NCBI GenBank assembly: GCA_900498245.1
Contig: LS998015.1
Coordinates: forward strand, 1,891,687 to 1,927,003
Length of the DNA stretch: 35,317 nucleotides
From: Candidatus Zixiibacteriota bacterium
GTDB taxonomy: Bacteria > Zixibacteria > MSB-5A5 > GN15 > PGXB01
Direction: 5' to 3'
In this document: positions 7,265 through 20,919 of the stretch, piece by piece
How the letters are laid out: the number at the start of each line of letters is the position of its first letter
Position numbering within the stretch: the stretch's first letter is position 1
Notes under the pieces: generated by a model
What the model was told of the DNA's origin: nothing
What the model saw: the letters and a program-made list of their open reading frames with translations, nothing else
Database searches by the model: none
Program-made: the position numbers and the translations under genes

Positions 7265-7621
7265 ATGAATATCTACGTGGGCAACCTGCCGCGCGAGACG
7301 GAGGAGGGCGACCTCCGCGAAATGTTTGAAGCCTTTGGTCGGGTTTCCAGCATCAACCTTATTCGGGACAAATTCAGTGGCGAGCTGAGAGGTTTCGGAT
7401 TTGTGGAAATGGGCAGCAAGGAAGAAGGCATGGCGGCTATCGCCGGTCTTAATGGCAAGGAAATGCACGGCAACGTTCTCAACGTCAATGAAGCCCGTCC
7501 TCGCGGCGAAGGTGGCGGCGGTGGCCGTGGCGGTTTCGGCGGTGGCGGAGGTCGCGGCGGTGGCCGTGGCTTCGGCGGTGGCGGAAATCGCGGCGGTGGT
7601 GGCGGCGGAAGACGCTTCTAA
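7265..7621 (+). CDS. Glycine-rich RNA-binding protein with one RRM
   Basis: The 118-residue protein has one RNA-recognition motif (about residues 1-80) and a C-terminal RGG/glycine tail (about 82-118). RNP2 is IYVGNL (3-8) and RNP1 is RGFGFVEM (42-49), with the aromatic residues that stack on RNA bases (Tyr4, Phe44, Phe46). This matches the short Rbp family of cyanobacteria and FCB bacteria, thought to act as RNA chaperones or cold-response proteins. ATG 7265 has GGAG at 7255-7258, 6 nt upstream; an ATG at 7261 is out of frame. The gene stands alone with its own promoter, long leader and terminator, as expected for a regulated, abundant protein. Confidence 0.92.
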   Translation: MNIYVGNLPRETEEGDLREMFEAFGRVSSINLIRDKFSGELRGFGFVEMGSKEEGMAAIAGLNGKEMHGNVLNVNEARPRGEGGGGGRGGFGGGGGRGGGRGFGGGGNRGGGGGGRRF

Positions 7622-14088: not shown

Positions 14089-15351
14089 CTAAATCACCCC
14101 GTACTTCTTCCCTATCTTAGTGAACGCGTCCAGCGCCCGGTCGAGATGCTCCCGCGTGTGGGCCGCCGATATCTGCACCCGAATACGGGAATTGCCGCGC
14201 GGCACCACCGGATAGAAAAATCCGACCACATAAATCCCTTCTTCATACAACTCCCTCGGGATTTTCTGCGCCAGTTCGACGTCGTTGTTGAATTTGCGGA
14301 ACAAAATCGGCACGATTGGATGAGTGCCTTCGATTATATCGAATCCCCGTTTAGTTATTTCTTCCCTGAAATACCGCGTGTTTTCCATTAACCGTTCCCG
14401 TAAATCGCTGGTTTTGTCGAGAAGGTCGAAAGCGGCGATTCCGGCCGCCACCAGCGCCGGCGGCAGGGTGTTGGAAAATATGTAGGGACGGGATTTCTGT
14501 CTTAATAACTCGATCACTTCTTTACGGCCGGTGGTGAATCCGCCCGAGGCTCCTCCCAGCGCTTTACCCAGGGTCGATGTAATAATCTCCACCCGACCCA
14601 GAACCCCGCAATGCTCCACCGCGCCCCGTCCGGTCTTTCCCAGAATACCGGTGGCGTGGGAATCATCGACCATCACCATCGCGCAATAATAATTCGACAG
14701 GTCGACAATTTCGACCAGTTTGGCGATATCGCCGTCCATCGAGAAAACCCCGTCGGTGACAATGATAATATTTCTGACCGGAGTCGGTTCTTTATCGAGG
14801 CCGGTTCCTTCCCAGACATCGGTCCCTTCGCGCACCCGTTTGAGGGTCCGCTCCAGCGATTGCATATCGCCGTGATCATAGATATACCGTTTGGCCTTGC
14901 AGAGACGGATCCCGTCGATGATACTGGCGTGATTAAGCGAATCGGTGATAATAGCATCCTCCGGCCCGAGAAGCGATTCGAACAGTCCGCCGTTGGCGTC
15001 GAAACAGGAGGAATAAAGAATGGTGTCTTCGGTACGATAAAAATCGGTAATCTTTTTTTCCAGCGTTTTGTGGAGGTCCTGCGTGCCGCAGATAAAGCGG
15101 ACCGACGATAGCCCGAATCCGTATTTATCGAGCGCTTCGTGGGCGGCCCGGATTAGATCGGGATGGTTGGCGAGTCCCAGATAATTGTTGGCGCAAAAAT
15201 TTATCACTTCGCGCGGCTCGGAATTGACCGGATAGGTGACCCGGATATCCGGTTTCTGGTCGGTCAGGATAATCCGCTCGTCTTTGTAGAGCCCGGCTTC
15301 CCTGATTTTGGAGACTTCCTGGCTCAGATCGAATTTGACTCTGGCATACAT
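14089..15351 (-). CDS. kbl: Glycine C-acetyltransferase (2-amino-3-ketobutyrate CoA ligase), copy 1
   Basis: PLP enzyme of the alpha-oxoamine synthase family that cleaves 2-amino-3-ketobutyrate with CoA to glycine and acetyl-CoA, or the reverse. In 420 residues: VINFCANNYLGLANHP, SSCFDANGGLFE, DSLNHASIIDGIRL, VDDSHATGILGKTGRG, and the PLP lysine Lys263 in STLGKALGGASGG, followed by SRPYIFSNTLPPALVAA as in E. coli Kbl. AAGGAGG lies 5 nt before the ATG at 15351; an in-frame ATG 24 bases further upstream lacks one. It is a single-gene unit with no adjacent threonine dehydrogenase. A second copy, alike along its whole length, lies in the operon at 19672-20919. Confidence 0.9.
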   Translation of the reverse strand: MYARVKFDLSQEVSKIREAGLYKDERIILTDQKPDIRVTYPVNSEPREVINFCANNYLGLANHPDLIRAAHEALDKYGFGLSSVRFICGTQDLHKTLEKKITDFYRTEDTILYSSCFDANGGLFESLLGPEDAIITDSLNHASIIDGIRLCKAKRYIYDHGDMQSLERTLKRVREGTDVWEGTGLDKEPTPVRNIIIVTDGVFSMDGDIAKLVEIVDLSNYYCAMVMVDDSHATGILGKTGRGAVEHCGVLGRVEIITSTLGKALGGASGGFTTGRKEVIELLRQKSRPYIFSNTLPPALVAAGIAAFDLLDKTSDLRERLMENTRYFREEITKRGFDIIEGTHPIVPILFRKFNNDVELAQKIPRELYEEGIYVVGFFYPVVPRGNSRIRVQISAAHTREHLDRALDAFTKIGKKYGVI

Positions 15352-15434
15352 AACAACCTCCTTAATACCGGACAAATTTACGTCATTTTTTCCGATATCA
15401 AAAGAATATTTTCCTTTCCGATCCCCGCGGCACC

Positions 15435-15480
15435 CGTAGGTGCGGATCTATGCGTCCGGCCTTTTTTTATCGGCCGATGC
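15435..15480. repeat. Palindromic module of the GTAGG type
   Basis: Begins GTAGGTGCGGATC, then ...GCGTCCGGCC, a T run and a closing GGCC hairpin. It resembles the modules at 16059-16120 and 16481-16542. Further small hairpins follow, for example CCGGACA-AGAA-TGTCCGG at about 15530-15547. Confidence 0.55.
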
Positions 15481-15721
15481 AAATTCCCCCAAAGGTGGGG
15501 CGGGCATTCCTGCCCTCCGCCAGGGAGCCGGACAAGAATGTCCGGCCCACCTATTGTTTGTCCCTGTGCCCGGTCTGCCCCTTGGGTGCCACCCCCAAAC
15601 TCTGGGACGGGCGGCGCGGCTATTCGGGGTTTGGGGGTGTTTTCCCGCGCCATCAAACGTCTTTCTGCCGCCCACCGTAAGCGGTGGGGTACCCGTTGCG
15701 GAGCAAGAAGATAGCTTTTCA

Positions 15722-16022
15722 TAAATGGAAATGAAGCCAATCGATTTTTGGGTGTAAGTAATTGATCGGTATATGGATACTGGAGATTTGGCTTCGCTTT
15801 TCTGATACAAAGGGGGGCCCCATTTTTTGCATCTTTTCTCTTATCCGATTGAACGGAAGAAGATTACGGCAATCTTTTGGCGCAAATTTATTCTTTAATA
15901 GGCGAGCGTGAAAACCGATCGGCTTCTGATAAAATATTGACATATTTATAGACCTCTCTGTACCTATTGGCCCTTTTAACCGAAGCACATCGAAATGATA
16001 TCGAAATTGCACCGTGCTGAAA
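15722..16022 (-). repeat. Dispersed repeat of about 300 bp, copy A
   Basis: The right part (15875-16022) recurs almost unchanged as a direct copy at 16298-16445. The whole unit recurs, inverted and more diverged, at about 17870-18170. Shared blocks include GGGCCAATAGGTACAG, AACCGATCGG and TTTGTATCAGAAA (reading the minus strand here). A one-base length difference after the last block breaks any shared reading frame, so the similarity is at DNA level. Confidence 0.8.
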
Positions 16023-16058
16023 TAATGTGTGCAGCAGATATCCTATCTGCCCGAGCCA

Positions 16059-16120
16059 TTGTAGGGGCGGACCGGCGTGTCCGCCCTTTTCCCGGGTCGA
16101 CACGCAGGTCGACCCCTACA
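16059..16120. repeat. Palindromic module, copy 1
   Basis: An imperfect 60-bp inverted repeat with ends TGTAGGGG and CCCCTACA and two internal hairpin arms (GGCGGAC...GTCCGCC and GGTCGAC...GTCGACC). Confidence 0.8.
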
Positions 16121-16230
16121 TTTGCAGTTCCGCAGGGTCTTGGGTCCCATTTTATGGGGGCGTGACCCTGCAGTCGAATGAAGTCGAGGATTTTGAATCG
16201 TACAAGCGCGGGGTCACATGCTGTCCTAAG

Positions 16231-16298
16231 GCCGGACCAAGACCCCGCGGAGCTGTGTGAGGTTATGTCCGCCCACCCCAAGGGGTGGGTTACCCGGT
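16231..16298. repeat. 68-bp module, copy 1
   Basis: Matches 16572-16639 with few differences. It contains the hairpin CCCACCCCAAGGGGTGGG followed by TTACCCGG. A relative with CCCACC...GGTGGGGTACCCG lies at about 15670-15700. Confidence 0.8.
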
Positions 16299-16542
16299 TT
16301 TGGCGCAAATTTATGCTTTAATAGGCGAGCGTGAAAACCGATCGGCTTCTGATAATATATTGACATATTTATAGACCTCTCTGTACCTATTGGCTCTTTT
16401 AACCGAGGCACATCGAAATGATATCGAAATTGCACCGTGCTGAAATAATGTGTTCGACAGATATCCTATCTGCCTGAGCTGTTGTAGGGGGGACCGGCGT
16501 GTCCGCCCTTTTCCCGGGTCGACACACAGGTCGACCCCTACA
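16298..16542 (-). repeat. Dispersed repeat copy B plus palindromic module
   Basis: A direct repeat of 15875-16120 at an offset of about 423 bases. It differs by roughly a dozen or so substitutions and one indel over 245 bases. It includes the repeat's right half and the adjoining palindrome, and its left side is cut short and joined to a CCCACC...GGTGGG module, so the two spread or were duplicated together. Confidence 0.88.
16481..16542. repeat. Palindromic module, copy 2
   Basis: The same 60-bp inverted-repeat module as at 16059-16120, with TGTAGGGG and CCCCTACA ends. It forms the right edge of repeat copy B. Confidence 0.8.
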
Positions 16543-16571
16543 ATATGTGCGCGGCAGACTTTAGTCTGCCC

Positions 16572-16639
16572 GCCGGACCAAGACCCCGCAGAACTGTGTG
16601 AGGTTATGATCGCCCACCCCAAGGGGTGGGTTACCCGGT
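16572..16639. repeat. 68-bp module, copy 2
   Basis: The second copy of 16231-16298. It ends 90 bases before the stop codon of the lipoprotein gene and may provide that transcript's end structure. Confidence 0.8.
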
Positions 16640-16729
16640 TAAGATTTCGCAGAGAATGAAGATAAGCAAAAATAGAATAATGGCCCGCGCCTTGATAGAT
16701 TTCACATTTCCTCCCCAAATTAATAATAG

Positions 16730-17638
16730 TTATGGTATGAAAGTTGTTAATTGCTTCCTTTCCGATCCATCAGATTTCATTGCCCATATTGAAATAAATT
16801 TTCCACCAGATAATCCGGTATAAGCAATATATTGACCATCGGGCGACCAGACCGGTCCCGAGGCTCCCCCCGTTAATATTCTCCTGAGATTCCCTCCATT
16901 TATGTCGAAAGTAGATATATTGCCGTCGGCGGCCGTTACAATCATCCCGGAAGACAAATTAAAATCTATTTTTTCGACAACCATATTACCCATAGGATCC
17001 ATGATTTTCCTTTTCCCGGAGCGATCAAAACTTTCAATCCAATAACCCGATCGGGCAATACTGTAAAACAAGCTCTCCCCAGATGGGTGCCACTGGGGGC
17101 CAGCGCCTCCACCCCAATATGAGAGGTTATCTTTGCCCTCGAAATCGGTTATCCATATGCCGGCAGAATCGTCCAGAGTGTTATAGACTGCGACCCGATC
17201 CTGATTCGGTGAAATATTCGGTTGCCAGAAGGCGCGTCGGAATGTCAACTGCGTGGCGCTGTCGCCGTTAATCTTCATTTTCCATATATATCCACGCATG
17301 AAAACCAGCCACTTGGAGTCGGCACTCCATGCCGGGAAATTTGCCCCCTGGACGAGAAGATGGGGATCGGAGCCGTCGGCATTCATTATCCATATCCCCG
17401 CTTTGGTATAGTCCATGGCCAGCGGCTCACAACTGTCATCGCTTATCGCCGTGACACCGTAATGATAATAGGCGATATACTGCCCGTCGGGGCTCCAGGC
17501 CGGATTATCATCAATCTGAACATAGCACAACTCACCGTCGTCAGGCGGTGTGGGCCGGGAATGCTTGTTACAGCCGACAAAAATCAATAATAGAGAGATT
17601 ATAATTGTTATTCTTATCAGAATGTCATTTCCTTTCAA
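16730..17638 (-). CDS. TolB-like beta-propeller lipoprotein
   Basis: An exported lipoprotein of 302 residues. After a short hydrophobic segment comes LLIFVGC, a lipobox with Cys23 as the lipidated residue. The body is a beta propeller of PD40/TolB-type blades: NPAWSPDGQYIAYY, FPAWSADSKWLVFM, QPNISPNQDRVAVY, GPQWHPSGESLFYS and GPVWSPDGQYIAYT. Such propellers usually bind proteins or peptides at the envelope. The start is odd: TTG 17638 has no Shine-Dalgarno site, while AAAGGA at 17630-17635 points, with 6-nt spacing, to an ATT at 17621-17623; the nearby ATG is out of frame. The gene is flanked on both sides by repeats and has its own promoter. The partner is unknown. Confidence 0.82.
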   Translation of the reverse strand: MKGNDILIRITIIISLLLIFVGCNKHSRPTPPDDGELCYVQIDDNPAWSPDGQYIAYYHYGVTAISDDSCEPLAMDYTKAGIWIMNADGSDPHLLVQGANFPAWSADSKWLVFMRGYIWKMKINGDSATQLTFRRAFWQPNISPNQDRVAVYNTLDDSAGIWITDFEGKDNLSYWGGGAGPQWHPSGESLFYSIARSGYWIESFDRSGKRKIMDPMGNMVVEKIDFNLSSGMIVTAADGNISTFDINGGNLRRILTGGASGPVWSPDGQYIAYTGLSGGKFISIWAMKSDGSERKQLTTFIP

Positions 17639-17743
17639 TAAATATTATTTTTCAAAACTTTGAGCAAAAACAAAACGCCATTGTTACTTTGCATCATTGC
17701 ATATATTTGCACATAAATTCCTGTCCCGATTCCAAGTACAAAC

Positions 17744-17771
17744 AATATAATTGACGCAACAATATTGTCAA
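17744..17771 (-). promoter_or_regulatory. Promoter of the lipoprotein gene
   Basis: On the minus strand: TTGACA (17766-17771), 16-nt spacer, TATATT (17744-17749), identical in hexamers and spacing to the RRM promoter. An inverted repeat AATTGAC (17749-17755) / GTCAATT (17767-17773) overlaps both hexamers and could be an operator. Confidence 0.65.
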
Positions 17772-17869
17772 TTGTTGAATCAGCCAATGGTAGGTCGAAA
17801 CCCTTGTGGCTTCGACATCTTCTTTAGGATGCCTTTTAGGTCGGCACCGTCTTCGGTCCTGACATTTCT

Positions 17870-18170
17870 TTTGCCTCAGCGTACAATTACAGCATCAATC
17901 TGATGTGCATAGGTTCACGGGGCCAATAGGTACAGCGAGGTTTATAATTGTGTCCGCAAATTATCAAAAACCGATCGGTCTTGGCGCCTGGCAATTATCA
18001 CGCAAAAATGAACCTAAAGATTGTCGTAATCTCCGCCCGTTCAACCATTTGAGCGAAAACATGCAAAAAATAGGTCCCCCTTTTGTATCAGAAAGCGAAC
18101 CCAAATATCCCGCATGCCTATACAGGTCATCCACTTACGGTGAAAATCAATCGGCTCGGTTTTATTTCAT
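17870..18170 (+). repeat. Dispersed repeat, copy C (inverted, diverged)
   Basis: Similar over its full length to the reverse complement of 15722-16022. Long shared blocks are GGGGCCAATAGGTACAG, AAAACCGATCGGT and TTTGTATCAGAAA. It is clearly more diverged from copy A than copies A and B are from each other. Confidence 0.72.
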
Positions 18171-18195
18171 ATATTGTGGGACAAAAGGTTATGGG

Positions 18196-18275
18196 CAATG
18201 CTGGATTCCCGCCTTCGCGGGAACGACATTATTGAGGAAATGGATTCCGGGCCAAGCCCGGAATGACATTACTGC
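18196..18275. repeat. Pair of REP-like hairpins
   Basis: Two units, each starting TGGATTCC and closing on a hairpin: TTCCCGC-CTTC-GCGGGAA and ATTCCGGG-CCAAG-CCCGGAAT, followed by A(C/T)GACATTA. Very similar units are scattered through many bacterial genomes. Confidence 0.75.
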
Positions 18276-18303
18276 AATGAAACAAGATTGGAATAACGAA
18301 TAC

Positions 18304-19530
18304 TCAGCAATAGATTTCTTTCAGAAATTCTATCCGGCGGGAGATTTTGACGTCGTTGGCGCATCGGGCAAGGCAGGTACTGCATGAGAGACAGTTGCGA
18401 ATAGAATTATCGGGCGGGATTTCGTCAAGCGTGGTGCGGGCCTGCAGTAAGTTACCGTATTGCGCGGCGTACATATAGGTCCGCATCAGGGTAGGAATTT
18501 CGACATCATGCGGACAGGACGCCAGACAACTTCGGCATTGGCGGCAGAAATCGAACCCGAGGCGGGCGCCCTGATCATCAAGGAACCGTTTTTCCTCGGA
18601 GGTGTACTCCAGATCGCGGGCCACGGCAAAATCCTGCTTCAGATGTTCGAAATTGGTGAAGCCGGGAATATTGGTCGTGATATTTTCGTTTCTCATGACC
18701 CACTTCAGCGAGGCCGAAGCGATCACAGGCGCGGTATATTTCTTTATCCATGATGCATTTTCCAGACTCGGCTTTTCTATTCCGCCCCAGAACGCTTTCA
18801 TGGCGATAATGCCGACCCCGGAGGCGGCGGCGTTCTTGATCGCCTCGAATAATTTCCTGTCCGATGACAGGGCGAAATTGATCATCGCCTCGACGACCTC
18901 ATAGAAACCGTCGCGGGCCACTTCGTTCATCACCTCGGCCATGTCAGCATGGGTGGTGACGCCGGCGAAGAGAATTTTCTTTTGTTCTTTGAGGGTGCTT
19001 ATCGCTTCTTTGATCGCCGGGTTTTGCACCTGCGCGATTTCATCGACGGCATGAAAATAAAAAATATCGACATAATCCATCTGGAGTTGACGAAGGCACG
19101 ATTCGACGCGCGTAATTATTATATCTTTCAGTTTTGCGGAGCCGACGTGATCCCAATCGCGCGGCAATTCGATTTTGGTCCCGATTATCACTTTGTCCCG
19201 GATGCCGAGAGTTTTCACCACCCGTCTGACCATCTCCTGATTGCGTCCCATCTGGTACGATTCGGCGGTGTCGAAAAGCCGGACCCCTTCTTCGTAGGCG
19301 GCGGCCATTACTTCGGGAACAGCGGCGTTCATGACGCCCATGCTGATGATGGGGATTTTCAAACCGGTTCTGCCGAGAGTGCGGTAAATGACCGGCTTTT
19401 CGGCCGAATCAGGTTTATCGTATTCTTTGCTGATATAGTCCTTGGCCCGGCCGGTAGCGGCCAACCCGGCGGCGCCAAGAGCGGCAGTAAAGAAATTTCT
19501 CCGTGACAGATTTATCTTATCGGCGCCCAT
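18304..19530 (-). CDS. Tat-exported aldo/keto reductase with two 4Fe-4S motifs
   Basis: The 408-residue protein begins with a twin-arginine signal (SRRNFFTAALGAAGLAA, Arg10-Arg11). The aldo/keto reductase barrel spans about 45-315 with the usual tetrad Asp87, Tyr92, Lys119 and His160. A C-terminal ferredoxin-like part has two clusters of four cysteines (Cys329/332/335/339 and Cys380/383/386/390). This form is common in anaerobes; the second cluster has Ala where ferredoxins have Pro. It likely moves electrons between an Fe-S chain and a carbonyl or sugar substrate outside the cytoplasmic membrane. GGGGGA lies 7 nt before ATG 19530. A terminator separates it from the Kbl operon upstream, so it is a separate unit. 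Confidence 0.86.
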   Translation of the reverse strand: MGADKINLSRRNFFTAALGAAGLAATGRAKDYISKEYDKPDSAEKPVIYRTLGRTGLKIPIISMGVMNAAVPEVMAAAYEEGVRLFDTAESYQMGRNQEMVRRVVKTLGIRDKVIIGTKIELPRDWDHVGSAKLKDIIITRVESCLRQLQMDYVDIFYFHAVDEIAQVQNPAIKEAISTLKEQKKILFAGVTTHADMAEVMNEVARDGFYEVVEAMINFALSSDRKLFEAIKNAAASGVGIIAMKAFWGGIEKPSLENASWIKKYTAPVIASASLKWVMRNENITTNIPGFTNFEHLKQDFAVARDLEYTSEEKRFLDDQGARLGFDFCRQCRSCLASCPHDVEIPTLMRTYMYAAQYGNLLQARTTLDEIPPDNSIRNCLSCSTCLARCANDVKISRRIEFLKEIYC

Positions 19531-19593
19531 ACGTCATTCCCCCATGGCGAAAATCTTTTATATGTTAATTAATACAAATACTCATCGGCGGCG

Positions 19594-19628
19594 CAAGAAG
19601 AAACCGGCGGGCCCGAATACCCGCCGGT
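19594..19628 (-). terminator. Terminator of the tdh-ligase-ACP-kbl operon
   Basis: On the minus strand: ACCGGCGGG / CCCGCCGGT stem (9 bp, 19603-19611 with 19620-19628), 8-nt loop, then a T-rich tail. It lies 43 bases after the kbl stop. Confidence 0.75.
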
Positions 19629-19671
19629 GAATCATAAAATCGATAACAAAAGCGAATTGAAATACAAGTAT

Positions 19672-20919
19672 CTACATTCCGTACTTGTCGATAATCTCCT
19701 GTTTGGTCTTATGCAGGATATCATACTTCTTACCGATTTTGGTGAAGGCCGCCAGGGCTTTCTCCAGATGGTGCATCTCGTGCGCCGCCGAGAGTTGCGT
19801 GCGGATACGGGCCTGGCCCTTAGGGACGACCGGGAAGAAGAAGCCGACCGCATAGATCCCTTCGGCATAAAGGTCCCGCGCGAAATCCTGCGACAGTTTG
19901 GCGTTGAAGAGCATGACCGGTACGATCGGGGTCTCCCCTTCCTTGATAATCAGGCCGGCCTCGGTCAGGCCCTTGCGCCAAAAGATGGTGTTTCTCTCCA
20001 GTTTGTCGCGCCGCTCGGTGGTTTTGCTGATAATATCGAGCACCCGGATAGCGCCGGAAACCACCACCGGCGGAATGGTATTGGAGAAAAGGTACGGGCG
20101 GGCTTTCTGACGGCACATCTCAACTAACTCGCGCCGCCCGGAGACACAGCCGCCGGAGGCCCCGCCGAGCGCCTTGCCGAGAGTGGTGGTGATAATATCG
20201 ATTTTGCCCATCACGCCGCAGTGCTCGTGGGTGCCTCTTCCCGTCTTGCCGATAAAGCCGGAGGCGTGGGAGTCATCGACAAACACCAGCGCGCCATATT
20301 TTTCCGCCAGTTCGACAATTTTATCCAACTTGGCCAGGTCGCCGTCCATCGAGAAAGAGCCGTCGGTAATAATCAGTTTCACCCGGGCTTTTTCGTGCAA
20401 CTGAAGTTTTTCCTCGAGATGGGCCATATCGGAGTGCTTGAAAGTGTCGGTCATCGCCTTGCACAGCCGCATACCGTCGACAATCGAAGCATGCACCAGC
20501 CGGTCGGCGATCATTACGTCCTGCTCGGTCAGTACCGCTTCGAAAACGCCGGCGTTGGCATCCATGCACGACGGGAAAAGGATGGTATCTTCGGTGCCAA
20601 GAAAGGTTGTCAGTTTCTGCTCCAGTTCTTTATGAATATCCTGCGTGCCGCAGATAAAGCGCACCGACGACATCCCGTAGCCGCGAAAGTCGAGTCCCTT
20701 GCGGGCGGCATCGACGACATCGGGATGCGAGGAGAGCCCCAGGTAATTATTGGCGCACATGTTGATGACTTTCTGTTTGGAGGCGCCGATGGGGAACTCC
20801 ACTTCAATTTCGGAATTCTGGGGAGCGCAGATGATCCGCTCCTCCTTGAAAATGCCGGCTTCTTTGATACCGGCGAGTTCGGTCTGATAAATCGATCTAA
20901 TGGCATCGGGAAATGACAT
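19672..20919 (-). CDS. kbl: Glycine C-acetyltransferase-like alpha-oxoamine synthase, copy 2 (operon)
   Basis: A second alpha-oxoamine synthase of the Kbl type, 415 residues: MCANNYLGLSSHP, PSCMDANAGVFE, DRLVHASIVDGMRL, VDDSHASGFIGKTGRG, and PLP lysine Lys249 in TTLGKALGGASGG, then ARPYLFSNTIPPVV. By eye it resembles copy 1 (14089-15351) along its full length at about half of positions. It ends in an extra tail (LHKTKQEIIDKYGM) absent from copy 1. It starts 7 nt after the stop of an acyl carrier protein gene and closes an operon that begins with threonine dehydrogenase. The likely reaction is acetyl-thioester plus glycine to or from 2-amino-3-ketobutyrate. The neighbouring carrier suggests that acetyl-ACP may replace acetyl-CoA (inference). 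Confidence 0.88.
   Translation of the reverse strand: MSFPDAIRSIYQTELAGIKEAGIFKEERIICAPQNSEIEVEFPIGASKQKVINMCANNYLGLSSHPDVVDAARKGLDFRGYGMSSVRFICGTQDIHKELEQKLTTFLGTEDTILFPSCMDANAGVFEAVLTEQDVMIADRLVHASIVDGMRLCKAMTDTFKHSDMAHLEEKLQLHEKARVKLIITDGSFSMDGDLAKLDKIVELAEKYGALVFVDDSHASGFIGKTGRGTHEHCGVMGKIDIITTTLGKALGGASGGCVSGRRELVEMCRQKARPYLFSNTIPPVVVSGAIRVLDIISKTTERRDKLERNTIFWRKGLTEAGLIIKEGETPIVPVMLFNAKLSQDFARDLYAEGIYAVGFFFPVVPKGQARIRTQLSAAHEMHHLEKALAAFTKIGKKYDILHKTKQEIIDKYGM

Follow-up and report, generated by a model that had tools for sequence, protein, structure and literature searches.

The 318-bp repeat that recurs in the window (by which we mean the whole 35,317-nucleotide stretch of DNA analysed here) is, in the reading that we prefer with moderate confidence, a dispersed family of short genes that arose by internal deletion from genes of a protein family we label KHG and then multiplied; it is probably a real, short gene family derived from a gene of known type, and not a structural repeat. 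The initial annotation of this DNA had described a unit dispersed in several copies, a description our searches bear out, the unit having fairly sharp ends; it had also taken this unit for a DNA or RNA element instead of a coding one, which they do not support. A blastn search of the own genome with copy A, as that annotation had proposed, gave 32 matches, and a profile search (R1, a 318-position model built from short copies) gave 40 matches at E ≤ 0.01 in this 3.5-Mb genome (G000), 33 of which cover at least 240 of the 318 positions; because of these 32 blastn and 40 profile matches, the likeness of the copies is far beyond chance. The profile also found 27 matches in G001, another species of the same genus, and 12 of the 60 genomes searched (the own genome included) had any match at all, those outside the genus being weak. 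An alignment of 23 copies (A1) has a mean column identity of 77% and few indels. No blastn match to the repeat was found in phages or plasmids, and the exact core pattern had no match in the viral or genome contigs searched, a set that near relatives may lie outside; an origin of the repeat from a phage or plasmid was discarded on these results.

Profile search placed all three copies that had been claimed for the window, with slightly shifted coordinates (Table 1; window position = L104 position + 11313). Copies A and B are indeed direct and nearly identical (95% identity over 193 nt), and C is inverted (74% complementary to A over 214 nt). Copy C had also been called older, which is not supported: the remaining long copies are likewise only 72-80% identical to A by blastn. 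Nor is B a separate truncated copy; instead, a tandem duplication took half of A together with A's right flank and its palindromes (alignment of both tandem units), and the likeness between A and B is due to this duplication. Elsewhere in the window, positions 7505-7618 hold a glycine-rich repeat run of the GGCGGTGGC type, its units being 9 and 12 nt long, and the gene at 14092-15375 has its best hits, at 57-62% identity, in many different phyla.

Table 1. Repeat copies, their short frames and neighbouring features, in window coordinates.
Feature	Position	Strand or orientation	Evidence
Copy A, 318-bp repeat	15720..16016	family orientation +, gene on -	R1 236 bits, model 22-317
Copy A short frame, 74 aa, ATG behind GAGAGG	15719..15943	-	frame list and alignment
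Tandem duplication, unit 1	15873..16299		direct repeats, alignment
Copy B frame, 46 aa, ended by duplication junction	16226..16366	-	frame list and alignment
Palindrome CCCACCCCAAGGGGTGGG	16272..16289, second copy 16613-16630		sequence reading; motif flanks RAYT gene on both sides
Tandem duplication, unit 2, internal gap, contains copy B	16296..16640		direct repeats, alignment
Copy B, gene-start half only	16297..16439	+	R1 101 bits, model 175-317
Lipoprotein gene, PD40 beta-propeller repeats, between A/B and C	16730..17638	-	Pfam PF07676, E 1.2e-14
Copy C, inverted, gene on +	17878..18191	-	R1 252 bits, model 2-316
Copy C frame, GTG start, 145 aa, extends beyond repeat end	17950..18387	+	frame list and alignment

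The coding signal lies on the strand opposite the family orientation, where a leader with a Shine-Dalgarno-like GAGAGG is followed, after ~9 nt, by a start codon (ATG in 22 of the 23 own copies, GTG in copy C). Of the 23 own copies, 22 keep an open frame from this start to the VS of the motif QKMGPPFVSE, where 9.6 (uniform placement) or 10.9 (placement weighted by column variability) would be expected if the same numbers of substitutions were set at random on the consensus; the test covers 23 of the 24 loci L001-L024, with the truncated copy B omitted, and treats related rows as independent although the copies share ancestry. The end branches of the copy tree are long (median 0.18), and each copy differs from the consensus by 11-25% substitutions, third codon positions being the most variable. 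The conserved stretch has the same length in 20 of 23 copies; of the rest, two have a 9-nt deletion each and one has a single inserted nucleotide close to the end. The dN/dS ratio of the open frames, a check that the initial annotation had suggested, is 0.56 (bootstrap 0.43-0.75) in the coding frame and thus only moderately low; in the remaining two frames of the same strand it is 0.79 and 0.84 with intervals that include 1 (23 own copies plus two of three G001 copies, L035 being omitted). By hand count, 12 of the 13 G001 copies with a recognisable start are open for at least 45 codons. Stop tallies over the whole repeat understate this signal, because they include the leader. Coding had been thought unlikely and a DNA or RNA element preferred, a coding signal conserved in the copies being named beforehand as the result that would speak against this, and such a signal is what we found. 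From these sequence comparisons we infer that the frame is probably translated and under selection now; its product might, at a guess, be a small, basic and possibly nucleic-acid-associated protein. The short frames, those of A and C included, had no Pfam match.

Towards the end of the frame the picture changes. An indel had been said to break the frame between A and C; the change in length is real, but it is located after the ~47 conserved codons. Several copies have a 1-nt frame change after VSE, with a tail that continues into flanking DNA, and no stop codon is common to all copies. In the 3' core (TGGGTTCG..GGGGCCCCATTTTTT), conservation extends to silent sites (L002, L013, L022 and L035 were omitted from this analysis), and the core is read in frames that differ between copies; therefore the constraint there is on the DNA itself.

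We consider it very unlikely that the repeat is a conserved structured RNA or a cis-regulatory leader of adjoining genes. Short nucleotide blocks are strongly conserved, as such a role might require, and an RNAalifold column-shuffle control gave z-scores of -3.2 for one strand and -2.4 for the other, a weak control because it breaks up conserved runs. However, the covarying structure that the initial annotation had proposed to look for did not appear: the A1 consensus fold reaches only -4.16 kcal/mol, with one of 21 pairs compensated (RNAalifold), and Rfam had no match to the repeat at E ≤ 1. The copies thus have no conserved RNA fold, and their neighbouring genes lie in all four orientations (12/10/9/7 of 38 copies); a leader or trailer of adjacent genes was discarded for this lack of orientation preference.

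Some repeat matches are longer, their additional sequence lying within the central part of the model, and these are homologous to the KHG family. The label is coined here after the motif ..ANRxNAQKSTGPKT..GK..SSxNAxKHGL.., and the members are 180-290-aa proteins of the form ..ANRxNAQKSTGPKT..KHGL..LVxKIANCLWRSRR..RYEMRLDRQL. An N-terminal query matched in 29 of the 40 genomes searched. A 19-row profile, run at E ≤ 1e-10 against 132 genomes of the phylum, found matches in 47, and many of these are open frames about 180-290 aa in length. For the 19 members searched, Pfam, NCBIfam and PHROG gave no relevant match (scattered database hits at E 0.0045-0.1 fell nearly all to one of the 19). Searches by tblastn gave weak hits in plasmids (Planctomyces, Paludisphaera, Gemmobacter, Sulfitobacter, Picosynechococcus) and none in phages, and no publication was found with the motif letters in a search for which most subscription journals were outside the scope, so that absence in print is not implied. 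An intact KHG protein of 191 aa has a predicted fold made up entirely of helices (mean pLDDT 74.5, pTM 0.50), for which neither the PDB nor the viral search gave a match at E ≤ 0.001; the fold therefore gives no function for KHG. In the family genome G004 there are also several near-alike units of 650-760 bp (L300-L303), with a short KHG frame of 85-89 aa and GAACCC motifs downstream of it. Around the start, L303 is 96% identical to L307 over 138 bp, but elsewhere the two differ, which makes a mosaic pattern.

The profile R1 matches KHG genes at their start (L145, which begins MPCTDRQLIANRLNAQKSTGPKT, and L122, which begins MPISERKLIANRLNAQKSTGPKT, both continuing to the KHG motif) and also matches long forms. 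One of these, L136 of G001, encodes 187 aa whose body is identical at 60/150 positions to a protein of the relative G004 and whose C-terminal end is the QKMGPPFVSE core of the repeat. In the hybrid L132:3233-3391 (G001), a KHG start, MRVSKKGDIANRRNAQKSTGPRTP, continues in frame into CTPKLSYNLCSFNPLPKNTQKMGPPFFS, the short-repeat body; its N-terminus is 17/33 identical to a KHG protein and its downstream part 16/31 identical to the short-repeat body, and L139 and L140 are hybrids of the same kind. The N-terminal motif ANRxNAQKSTGPKT..GK..NAxKHGL is present together with KHG in L122 and L145 and up to STGP in the three hybrids, and the main short copies retain only a QKPIG remnant of it; the middle domain (LVxKIANCLWRSRR / RYEMRLDRQL) is absent from the 318-bp form and present in long forms such as L136. 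The R1 matches and hybrid L132 point to a common ancestry of leader, start and 3' end in the short repeat and the KHG genes, and since the long and hybrid copies join both families, the most plausible reading of the short repeat is a KHG gene that has lost its middle. On this reading, an internal deletion would have removed the middle of a KHG gene and retained the leader, the start and the 3' end along with a vestige of the STGP motif, and the deleted form would then have multiplied to a few dozen intergenic copies beside REP-like palindromes. Each copy carries the leader with GAGAGG, the start codon and the ~47 conserved codons on the strand opposite the family orientation, followed by a variable tail that often extends beyond the repeat.

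Comparison of the two species bears on how the copies have spread. Among the 21 G001 loci that carry copies, aligned flanks put 10 at an intergenic site that is also occupied by an own copy, with the same orientation at eight of them and the opposite one at two. This is a hand count, and the match of sites is loose in that the alignable flank mostly ends 14-450 bp before the copy and in one pair ~1.3 kb before it. At an eleventh locus, L141 (G001:C385:6212-14302), G001 has the right flanks of the own copies L103 and L102 (G000 360.7k and 393.2k) next to each other; in the own genome these two copies are mutually inverted and 32 kb apart, so that an inversion by recombination between them would give the G001 arrangement. 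A tree of 48 of the 70 R1 matches, those with at least 220 filled columns, separates the own genome from G001 with 4 changes (12.8 in shuffles), and among seven same-site pairs only L127/L112 are sisters. Copies in this tree are more alike within a genome than between the same sites of the two species, which would reflect either homogenisation within each genome or replacement of old copies at favoured sites. There is one clean empty site, where G001 has an 830-bp stretch with a KHG gene start and the G000 flanks meet directly; no target duplication is visible at this one site, which concerns a longer stretch than the repeat. Taken together, the copies appear to have been spread or homogenised by recombination or transposition, possibly with the neighbouring REP and RAYT sequences.

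The arrangement in the window had been likened to a decayed composite element, and A and C do lie inverted around the lipoprotein gene. In the three family relatives that have both outer genes on one contig (G004, G011 and G013), only 125-151 bp separate the gene at 14089-15375 from that at 19672-20919, and the whole intervening block (window 15400-19670, which comprises the three copies, the lipoprotein gene and the gene at 18304-19530) is missing; the block is therefore special to this lineage, a point in favour of a composite transposon. However, the block includes the gene at 18304-19530, which is outside A-C, and G001 has this gene with a copy alongside it, near C's place and in the opposite orientation, at which point the contig ends; the G001 lipoprotein gene is on a separate contig, with no repeat copy in the 3.96 kb read around it. 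Moreover, B is a tandem duplication, copies elsewhere are mostly solitary beside unrelated genes, and the lipoprotein gene, which is not part of the repeat, accounts for the only long frame between A and C; the initial annotation was right that no transposase is visible, there being none among the reading frames between A and C. We therefore regard a decayed composite transposon of A and C as extremely unlikely, although recombination between copies may have shuffled genes in this block.

A rather unlikely alternative is that the repeat is a non-coding, MITE-like passenger. On this view, dead fragments of KHG genes would have spread as DNA through resident REP-associated tyrosine transposases (RAYTs) or through recombination between flanking REPs, and the open frame would be a legacy of the source gene. 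The copies are dispersed, mostly intergenic and without the orientation preference discussed above, they lack a common stop codon, and the G000 empty site opposite the KHG-bearing G001 stretch would suit a mobile unit. The repeat is not itself a short palindromic unit, being 318 bp long and without a stable consensus hairpin, but palindromes adjoin it: a REP-like palindrome lies within 120 bp of 20 of 23 copies (B and the more diverged copies omitted) vs 29% of intergenic control windows from the same loci, a contrast that is biased upward because most motifs were picked from copy flanks. The own genome has 13 RAYT matches, 11 of them above the curated cut-off, and CCCACCCCAAGGGGTGGG, GCAGATGTCCACATCTGCC and GATGTCGGGTTTCTCG each occur on both sides of RAYT genes in it; one RAYT gene (L122:3190-3876, G000 ~644.4 kb; NF047646, E 1.7e-32) lies within a KHG element, whose start and 3' part it separates. 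Against a passenger stand the frames that are open in nearly every copy despite the substitutions, where about half would be expected, together with the in-frame deletions and the variability of third codon positions. In addition, the repeat ends ..TAACCTCTTGTCCCGCAA and ATTGCACCGTGC are not complementary and form no terminal inverted repeat (alignment, by eye), and no target duplication was seen. A further possibility, which strikes us as improbable, is that KHG is a self-spreading gene family of a new kind, without a recognised transposase and with DNA conserved at both ends (start leader and 3' core), which would copy itself between intergenic sites and give rise to miniature, still-translated derivatives homogenised in each genome.

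If the dispersed short-gene family that we prefer is confirmed, annotation that skips such short frames overlooks a real family. An apparent non-coding repeat becomes a probable multi-copy gene family, tied to KHG, which occurs in a good part of this bacterial order and has no Pfam or NCBIfam model. The repeat would offer a test case for short genes that arise by internal deletion and spread between other genes, and for copies that come to resemble others in their own genome more closely than those at the corresponding sites in another species.

The closest known relatives of the repeat are the KHG proteins, with which it shares the leader and start region and the 3' core, the long and hybrid copies bridging both; it differs from them in having neither the KHGL motif nor the helical middle, and in its far higher copy number. 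Neisserial intergenic mosaic elements with dRS3 repeats are shorter than the present repeat and non-coding. Compared by description, they resemble the present family as non-coding-looking units beside short ATTCCC..GGGAAT palindromes in intergenic arrays. With REP/BIME sequences and RAYTs (PMC2817692) there is common ground in that the adjoining palindromes include motifs which bracket RAYT genes of the own genome, whereas the repeat is non-palindromic and mostly without a flanking RAYT gene, the role of RAYTs here being putative. The enterobacterial units RU-1, RU-2 and RU-3 are described (PMC2759123) as mobile MITE-like repeat units of 103-168 bp that carry open reading frames, and are thus likewise small dispersed intergenic units with a readable frame; judged by that description, the repeat differs from them in its length of 318 bp, in its derivation from a recognisable gene family and in having kept its own start region.
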